46,212 bases of DNA, taken from an archaeon. Its GTDB lineage: Archaea; Hydrothermarchaeota; Hydrothermarchaeia; JALTZZ01. A program made the translations under genes and the position numbers. The DNA lies in NCBI GenBank assembly GCA_027051165.1, contig JALTZZ010000092.1:1-46212 (forward strand). Reading direction: 5' to 3'. The notes under the pieces are model-generated. The model did no database searches, was not told the origin of the DNA, and saw only the letters and a program-made list of their open reading frames with translations. How positions within the stretch are numbered: the first letter of the stretch is position 1; each line of letters opens with the position of its first letter. Of the stretch, positions 41,782 through 43,733 are shown piece after piece.

Positions 41782-42594
41782 TCAAAGCTTTCTATATAGA
41801 TCCCTTAAGAGAACGGCATCCTCTTCAAGGTTTGGACTCTCGCTTATCAAAAGCCCGGAAGCTCCAAAATCCTTTAATGCCTTAATGAGGTCTTTATAGT
41901 TCATATCGGATTCTCTTAAATTTAAATGCTTCTTTTCTCCATACTCCTCATACTCGATCCCCGATACATGTATGTGCATGTCTTTTATTGCCTCTTTTCC
42001 AAGTTCTTCTTCAATTCTCTCAAGAATTTTTGTAAACTCCTCGTAGGTATTGTATTTATGCGTTCTCGCATGTATATGTGCGAAATCTATGCATGGAAGA
42101 ACATTTTCAAGCTCCTGACTCAGGGATATTACCTCCTCAAGGGTTCCGAACTCCTTCCAGTTTCCAGTAGTTTCCGGTCTTAAGACTACATCAAAATTTA
42201 TCACGCTTAGAATTTCCTCAATAGCTTTTTTTACTTTTTTATAAACATCTTTCGGATCGTCGCCCATGTAATAAGCTGCATGAAATACAATGTTCCTTGC
42301 TCCGCATAGGTGCCCGATTCTTGCAGAATCAATTATCCTTTTTTTACTATATTCAATTTTCTTCTCTTCTCTTGCGTTAAGATTTATGAAGTATGGTGCA
42401 TGAACACTCAACGCAATTTCATTCTCGTTCGCCGTTTCTCTGACTTTTTTAGCCAGTTCTTCCCTCATTCTTACTCCTCTTACAAATTCTATTTCCATAC
42501 AATCTAAATTTAGCTCTTTTACTCGGATTATTCCAGAAATAGTGTCTCTCCTTTTTGAGCTATTGGGAACTCCTGCGGTGCCAAATAACAGCAT
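41782..42594 (-). CDS. Endonuclease IV/TIM-barrel AP endonuclease-like protein
   Basis: A 270-aa TIM-barrel protein of the AP-endonuclease 2 superfamily. Metal-ligand-type segments: SVHAPYFINL, NIVFHAAYYMG, LRPETTG, PCIDFAHIHAR, DMHIHVSGIEY and LISESPNLEEDA. These correspond to the ordered His, Glu and Asp ligands of endonuclease IV, which nicks DNA 5' to abasic sites. It is slightly shorter than bacterial Nfo (about 280 aa) and could instead be a sugar isomerase-like member. No operon partner is seen. Confidence 0.85.
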   Translation of the reverse strand: MLLFGTAGVPNSSKRRDTISGIIRVKELNLDCMEIEFVRGVRMREELAKKVRETANENEIALSVHAPYFINLNAREEKKIEYSKKRIIDSARIGHLCGARNIVFHAAYYMGDDPKDVYKKVKKAIEEILSVINFDVVLRPETTGNWKEFGTLEEVISLSQELENVLPCIDFAHIHARTHKYNTYEEFTKILERIEEELGKEAIKDMHIHVSGIEYEEYGEKKHLNLRESDMNYKDLIKALKDFGASGLLISESPNLEEDAVLLRDLYRKL

Positions 42595-42863
42595 AAATTA
42601 GAAAAAACAACTTCACAACAAAAAACTGTTTAAAACGATGTTGTGTTAAAAGGTTTAATAATAATGATTATATAATTAATGATTTAATATAAACTTTATT
42701 TAAAAACAATATAATACTATGCATTGGGGTTGTTTTCGAAAAAATAAAAAATTATTTTCTAAAAAACTAAAAGATAAAAAGATGAATTGCTTATTAAAAC
42801 TTAACTGCAAGCTTATACATTATAAACTAAAGTGTGAATGTGTATACATTTTCAACATGTGAA
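42595..42863. other. Very AT-rich intergenic stretch
   Basis: No gene is seen in either strand. It contains long A and T runs, an imperfect repeat of ATTATATAATTAATGATTTAATATAA type, and TGTATACA at 42841-42848, also found upstream of the AAA ATPase at 45678-45685. The composition would suit an easily melted region or a promoter hub. It lies directly before the GC-rich RNA candidate. Confidence 0.4.
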
Positions 42864-42879
42864 GCGAAAAATTTATATA
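42864..42879 (+). promoter_or_regulatory. BRE/TATA promoter of the GC-rich RNA candidate
   Basis: GCGAAAAA followed by TTTATATA (42872-42879). The predicted start of transcription is near 42901, two bases before a perfect GC-rich hairpin and with no ORF behind it. Confidence 0.6.
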
Positions 42880-42900
42880 CTAGTAGTTGTAAAACTATTA

Positions 42901-42993
42901 ATCCTAGGGGGCGCCTTACAAGCTAATTTTTATTTCTATGCCCCCTAGGCCCCCTCCCCCCGTTGTTACAAAATGACAAGGAAGTAAACAACG
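42901..42993 (+). ncRNA. Candidate small structured RNA with a perfect GC-rich hairpin
   Basis: CCTAGGGGGC (42903-42912) pairs perfectly with GCCCCCTAGG (42940-42949) around a 27-nt AT-rich loop. A C-rich run (CCCCCTCCCCCC) follows, then a second perfect stem CGTTGTT (42961-42967) and AACAACG (42987-42993). In an AT-rich thermophile such GC islands outside genes usually mark structured RNA. It has a strong TATA promoter at the exact distance. No tRNA, SRP, RNase P or box C/D or H/ACA signature was recognised. The 3' end is a guess. It might alternatively be an origin-related repeat. Confidence 0.55.
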
Positions 42994-43145
42994 CTCCGTT
43001 GCTAAACGTTTGATAAACTTTTATGCCCATACATTCATAATCTATAATTTACTATGGGGTAAATATTTATAAACTTTTCTATCAAGAAAACGTTTTAAAT
43101 ATTGAGAATGTGAAGTTATAAAGCACCTTATTTAATAGTCATACA
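42994..43145. other. Intergenic segment downstream of the RNA candidate
   Basis: No gene is seen. CGTTGCTAAACG and other short repeats of the ACG/CGT type continue to about 43015, then AT-rich sequence reaches the stop of the TraB-like gene. TTTATAAAC at 43066-43074 resembles a TATA box without an obvious start behind it. Confidence 0.35.
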
Positions 43146-43733
43146 TTAACTAAAAATCTTTATTTCAGAGCAATCGAGCTCTAATGGCTCTTTTACTTCT
43201 ATTTCTCTTTCTTTAAGGAAATTTTCTAAGAGACTATTATCTTCAAGAAATTTTTTTATGCCATTTACATGGCTGTGTCCGACAACACACAGAATTTTTT
43301 TATCCCTAAATTTTTCTTTTAACATTTTTATCTTTTTAGCCATTATTGCATCTCTCTCTTTTATCAATATTTCTTGGGCTTTTTTATATTCGTCCTCATT
43401 TTCATTCCAAACGATCTTCAAAAAGCCAGCTATGCTTCCTTCGTGAAATTTTTCAAATGCTTTTTCATTTTTTATTTTTAAGCTCTTTCTAAGTCTTTTT
43501 TCGATAACTTCTTTTTCACAATCTATCAAAAACACTCTTGCATTTATATCGCAAGCAGTTACAATTGCTATTTTCATTTCTGTCTCCAAGTAAAATCTTA
43601 CAAGCAAAAATTTCATATAATCGTCAGGCGGAAGCTCAACGCATACTATCTCGGGCATCTCCTTTATTATCGCATCCTCAACCTCGGCTATCGAGTATTG
43701 GTGTCTATGGTGAACTCCTACGAACTTTATCAT
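43146..43733 (-). CDS. TraB/PrgY-family domain protein (short form)
   Basis: A 195-aa protein of the TraB/TIKI-like superfamily. It has the N-terminal GVHHRHQYSIAEVEDAI and IVCVELPPDDYMKFLL, a helical middle, and the conserved LCVVGHSHVNGIKKFLED near the C-terminus. Some members are metalloproteases. The C-terminal membrane domain found in many archaeal TraB proteins (about 380-400 aa) is missing, so this is a soluble form. It is followed in the same direction from cbiB, 50 nt away. Confidence 0.85.
   Translation of the reverse strand: MIKFVGVHHRHQYSIAEVEDAIIKEMPEIVCVELPPDDYMKFLLVRFYLETEMKIAIVTACDINARVFLIDCEKEVIEKRLRKSLKIKNEKAFEKFHEGSIAGFLKIVWNENEDEYKKAQEILIKERDAIMAKKIKMLKEKFRDKKILCVVGHSHVNGIKKFLEDNSLLENFLKEREIEVKEPLELDCSEIKIFS

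Follow-up and report, generated by a model that had tools for sequence, protein, structure and literature searches.

What kind of element is a GC-rich inverted repeat that stands directly behind a TATA box in an AT-rich archaeal genome and, if it is the gene of an RNA, what might that RNA do? The question is raised by positions 42864-42993 of the window, by which we mean the whole 46,212-nucleotide stretch of Hydrothermarchaeia DNA analysed here, where an earlier note made from the letters alone had read a structured non-coding RNA of no known class behind a strong promoter. Here we report that the element is almost certainly a member of a multi-copy, uncatalogued RNA family, and we weigh what its conserved parts suggest about function.

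Layout of the locus in the window

The element lies inside a 551-nt gap between two minus-strand ORFs, one for a xylose-isomerase-like TIM-barrel protein (41782-42594) and the other for a TraB/PrgY-type protein (43146-43733), and no ORF of at least 60 amino acids overlaps it, as had been noted. On the plus strand a TATA box, TTTATATA, occupies 42872-42879; it is recognised both from its sequence and from the same box at -34 to -29 in relatives. The stem begins 31 nt from the first base of this box, a spacing that predicts a transcription start at 42900-42903, and in most relatives there is a G just 5' of the stem. The hairpin is the perfect 10-bp inverted repeat of the earlier note, with a 5' arm at 42903-42912 (CCTAGGGGGC in the DNA, CCUAGGGGGC in the RNA) and a 3' arm at 42940-42949 (GCCCCCTAGG and GCCCCCUAGG, respectively), separated by a 27-nt loop (42913-42939) that carries the U-run UUUUU at 42927-42931. 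The C-rich run is likewise in place as a single-stranded tail, CCCCCUCCCCCC, at 42950-42961, which includes the anti-Shine-Dalgarno core CCUCC and is kept directly 3' of the stem. A 161-nt region has a folding energy of -38 kcal/mol (z -2.69).

The second 7-bp stem of the earlier note, CGTTGTT (42961-42967) with AACAACG (42987-42993), can be found in the sequence, but it is one among many 7-nt repeats of this AT-rich stretch and has no equivalent in relatives; the segment 42961-42993 was accordingly left out of the RNA family. In the window copy the 5' arm is also able to pair with the tail (AGGGGGC/GCCCCCT). A switch between stem and tail was nevertheless rejected as a family feature, because paralogs with stems of the CCUGUAAGAC type cannot form the alternative pairing.

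An RNA family of the Hydrothermarchaeia

DNA searches identified a second copy on another contig of the same genome (80% identity, E 1e-14) and a copy in one class-mate (E 7e-8). Searching with only the tail, TAGGCCCCCTCCCC, gave 12 sites in six genomes, at 11 of which a hairpin lies immediately upstream whose arms differ between sites yet remain complementary. At G015:C113:493-506 (L032) this tail stands without an obvious upstream hairpin, possibly as a degraded copy. Covariance models were built stepwise from 12 (R1), 33 (R2) and 48 (R3) sequences. Members used for building match their own model by construction; the 12 sequences of R1 already recovered most other copies. At E<1e-4 there are 60 loci in 21 of the 23 Hydrothermarchaeia genomes examined, one to seven per genome, and they share a plan of TATA box, approximately 24 nt, hairpin of 8-11 bp with a U-rich loop, and C-rich tail (CCCCCUCCCC and variants). 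In G008 two RNA copies stand in tandem approximately 60 nt apart on the same strand (C9:1347202-1347250 and 1347093-1347143, L128), the second of them diverged. The two examined genomes of the window's own order, G001 and G002, have no detectable copy even though one is 95% complete, which we ascribe to loss or strong divergence.

Outside the class, R1 found nothing better than E 0.0195. Across 371 other archaeal genomes the best R2 match had E 0.0078 and four genomes reached 0.02, close to chance expectation, none of them convincing, and the weak out-of-class matches are without a promoter. A pattern scan of genome contigs matched no archaeal records other than those named Hydrothermarchaeota/Hydrothermarchaeum or Euryarchaeota, and whole-genome searches assign these to the Hydrothermarchaeia as well; its bacterial matches come mostly from high-GC organisms and look like chance, and the single viral match was rejected as unrelated GC-rich DNA. 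As far as sampled, the family is confined to the Hydrothermarchaeia. In keeping with the class-less RNA first described, no Rfam 15 family matches the window or six relatives at the gathering threshold, a permissive Rfam scan of 42700-43200 returned only one 11.9-bit chance match, and a tRNA search with ARAGORN returned nothing. The open-access literature holds no report of such an RNA for Hydrothermarchaeia. We regard the family as new, and as resembling in kind the known anti-Shine-Dalgarno small RNAs.

The compensatory changes that had been proposed as a check on both stems are abundant in the first and give no support to the second. Over 48 distinct sequences 93% of stem cells pair and 107 carry changes on both sides; sliding the arms lowers these values to no more than 49% and 34, respectively. 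Under a phylogeny-aware null, home-made in the manner of R-scape by re-dealing substitutions on a FastTree tree, the eight variable stem pairs take the top eight places among 2211 column pairs; two of them score above anything in the null, and the remaining six have individual E-values of 0.04 to 1.8. Covariation thus demonstrates the stem and supports the reading as a gene for a small structured non-coding RNA. A coding reading was rejected, since loop lengths vary in all three frames.

The repeat is of course visible on DNA too, and its copies are several and dispersed, as would be those of an inverted-repeat protein-binding site, a small transposon relic or a replication repeat. We consider such a DNA-level element highly improbable, because the stem retains G-U pairs, which favours RNA over DNA, because the layout is one-sided at fixed spacing, with the TATA box upstream and the C-run downstream, and because loops and flanks are unrelated between copies. 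Furthermore, the position beside the same genes is kept in different families: UbiD adjoins the RNA in both G016 and G011, and argH does so in f3, G011 and G016. Such retention fits the vertical inheritance of separate paralogs, which is how we view this family. Nor does the family look like the replication-origin repeat that had been named as the refuting case, since relatives are mostly single dispersed loci whose gene neighbours differ.

Promoters and gene context

The RNA models contain no promoter, and the region upstream of the stem is therefore an independent test of the loci. Of 41 first-set relatives, 31 have their best TATA match within -34 to -29 relative to the stem, and none of 16 weak out-of-class matches does; as the TATA matrix was derived from first-set sequences, the fair comparison is with these controls and with the more diverged second set, where 3 of 18 pass the strict matrix and several are AT-rich there by eye. 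Most first-set loci thus have their own promoter at a fixed distance from the stem. Taken with the covariation, this recurrent spacing bears out the original proposal, a structured RNA with a strong archaeal promoter in front of it, as regards the first stem and the C-run. Each RNA would be transcribed alone from its own TATA promoter.

A different arrangement is suggested by family f3, where argH follows one paralog at a distance of 32-90 nt and a second paralog closely precedes an ORF that itself stands before trpA, as might a cis-acting leader or attenuator of argH or of tryptophan genes. A riboswitch or leader should have a downstream gene on its own strand, whereas at about half of 41 loci, the window included, the next gene is a convergent ORF on the opposite strand, which points to stand-alone genes. 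Moreover, the RNA is divergent from argH in G011 and G016, argH is not downstream of it in G018, and most argH-preceding copies are followed by a second, separate TATA-like box before argH (none as clear in L132 and L133), so that control in cis appears improbable.

The C-rich tail and a proposed function

CCUCC, the complement of GGAGG and the core of the anti-Shine-Dalgarno, occurs in 45 of 50 distinct tails (shuffles: mean 17, maximum 31) and CACCUCC in 11 of 50 (mean 1.7, maximum 7), comparisons in which relatedness of the sequences inflates the counts. The 16S gene is absent from the assembly of the window's genome and its 3' end was taken from three class-mates as GGATCACCTCCT, to which CACCUCC is identical. 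Genes of the window's own genome carry AGGAGGTGAT-like Shine-Dalgarno sites at -14 to -9. The tail is hence an unpaired motif complementary to the Shine-Dalgarno of the organism, as in anti-Shine-Dalgarno small RNAs.

Duplex energies of the tails were computed against 316 sampled start regions of the same genome, and the preference for these over coding sequence was compared with that of shuffled tails. For tails CACCUCCUC, CCUCCUCCCUCCC, CCACCUCCCC and the f3 trp-type, the preference for start regions exceeds that of most shuffles; these four paralog tails carry CACCUCC or CCUCCU, and shuffles were as good in 2/60, 6/59, 2/55 and 3/45 cases. The window tail and the f3 argH-type tail do no better than shuffles (26/60 and 32/60 as good), so composition alone can explain their preference. 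Among the 316 start regions, the strongest predicted pairings of the window tail include, by eye, phage portal-, cobalt-transport CbiQ- and HdrB-like genes, which we do not claim as targets because the shuffle control is negative. The start region most complementary to this tail, AAGGGGGGAGUGAAUG, belongs to the phage portal-like gene at L169:3448 (+).

The most conserved tail, CCCCCUCCCC, would find its best partner in GGGGAGGGGG and not in AGGAGGUGAU, the organism's commonest site, and what is conserved in the tails is a C-run more than an exact anti-Shine-Dalgarno copy. These features would also suit a structural or protein-bound RNA that pairs with no mRNA, the hairpin and C-rich tail serving as a protein platform or the copies acting as a sponge for some protein that recognises C-rich or U-rich sequence. 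A protein that binds the C-tail would account for tail conservation equally well, and the several near-equivalent paralogs per genome and the negative energy test of the window tail are in line with it. However, diverged paralog tails shift toward CACCUCC/CCUCCU, that is, toward the anti-Shine-Dalgarno beyond mere C-richness, and the neighbour genes offer no candidate protein consistently linked to the loci. We therefore consider a protein-bound RNA rather unlikely, while recognising it as the main rival: with four paralog tails positive in the energy test and the window and f3 argH-type tails negative, control of translation by an anti-Shine-Dalgarno mechanism, the reading we favour, has about an even chance of being correct.

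The loop may contribute a further function. The longest T-run in 37 distinct loops averages 4.65, against 3.08 in shuffled loops (shuffle maximum 3.78), and 22 of the 23 class genomes encode an Lsm protein, a type known from other archaea to bind U-rich RNA (PMC12817955). The U-rich loop is a possible Lsm (SmAP) site.

Taken whole, the best explanation, to which we give slightly better than even chances, is a trans-acting small RNA whose tail pairs with G-rich ribosome-binding sites and whose loop may serve Lsm. According to this model, an RNA of approximately 60-75 nt would consist of a 5' hairpin with a U-rich loop and, directly after it, the C-rich tail. The hairpin would protect the RNA and offer its loop to Lsm proteins, leaving the free tail to pair in trans with GGAGG and its flanks at ribosome-binding sites and so to block or tune translation initiation. 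As tails differ between paralogs, these could prefer different mRNAs.

Comparison with known small RNAs

RsaE/RoxS-type small RNAs of Gram-positive bacteria direct a C-rich single-stranded seed against G-rich ribosome-binding sites; the Hydrothermarchaeia RNA would share such a seed but differs in architecture and lineage. The Rhizobiales small RNAs SmelA075 and SmelA099 we take to be members of the cuckoo/CcsR group of Alphaproteobacteria. Their stems vary, while a C/U-rich anti-Shine-Dalgarno motif, CCUCCUCCC, is conserved and exposed (PMC3927594). Although the Hydrothermarchaeia RNA is likewise a small RNA with a variable stem and an exposed motif, the bacterial motif sits in the loops of hairpins that are often in tandem, whereas here it forms a 3' tail behind a single hairpin whose loop is U-rich; sequence homology is not implied. 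In archaea, the intergenic sRNA154 and sRNA41 of Methanosarcina mazei have been proposed to mask ribosome-binding sites, and sRNA154 has two loops with its anti-RBS sequence in loop 2 (PMC5867862). These are Methanosarcina RNAs, and we know of no set of paralogs among them that spans a class and keeps a C-rich tail. The Hydrothermarchaeia RNA belongs neither with sRNA154/sRNA41 nor with the cuckoo/CcsR-like RNAs that carry their motif in a loop.

To our knowledge, few conserved intergenic regulatory RNAs have been described from archaea, and hardly any from uncultured classes. A stem backed by covariation, a promoter, multiple paralogs in a genome and a pairing motif open to testing together offer a defined starting point for studying RNA-based regulation in an archaeal class of hydrothermal and subsurface habitats about which little is known, and make a case for asking whether anti-Shine-Dalgarno small RNAs arose independently in both domains. 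More tentatively, and as a possibility that we would not yet call probable, the class may hold up to seven paralogous anti-Shine-Dalgarno small RNAs per genome, mimics of the 16S 3' end mounted on a hairpin with an Lsm-binding loop, which would be an independently evolved archaeal counterpart of Hfq-type regulation with labour divided among the tails.

Finally, the f3 genomes (L132-L137, L139, L144-L146, L148) carry longer tails with repeated modules (CCCCCCUCCCCAACACCUCCCUCCCC; CCCCCUCCCCCCACCUCCUCCC) that resemble two anti-Shine-Dalgarno sites in a row.
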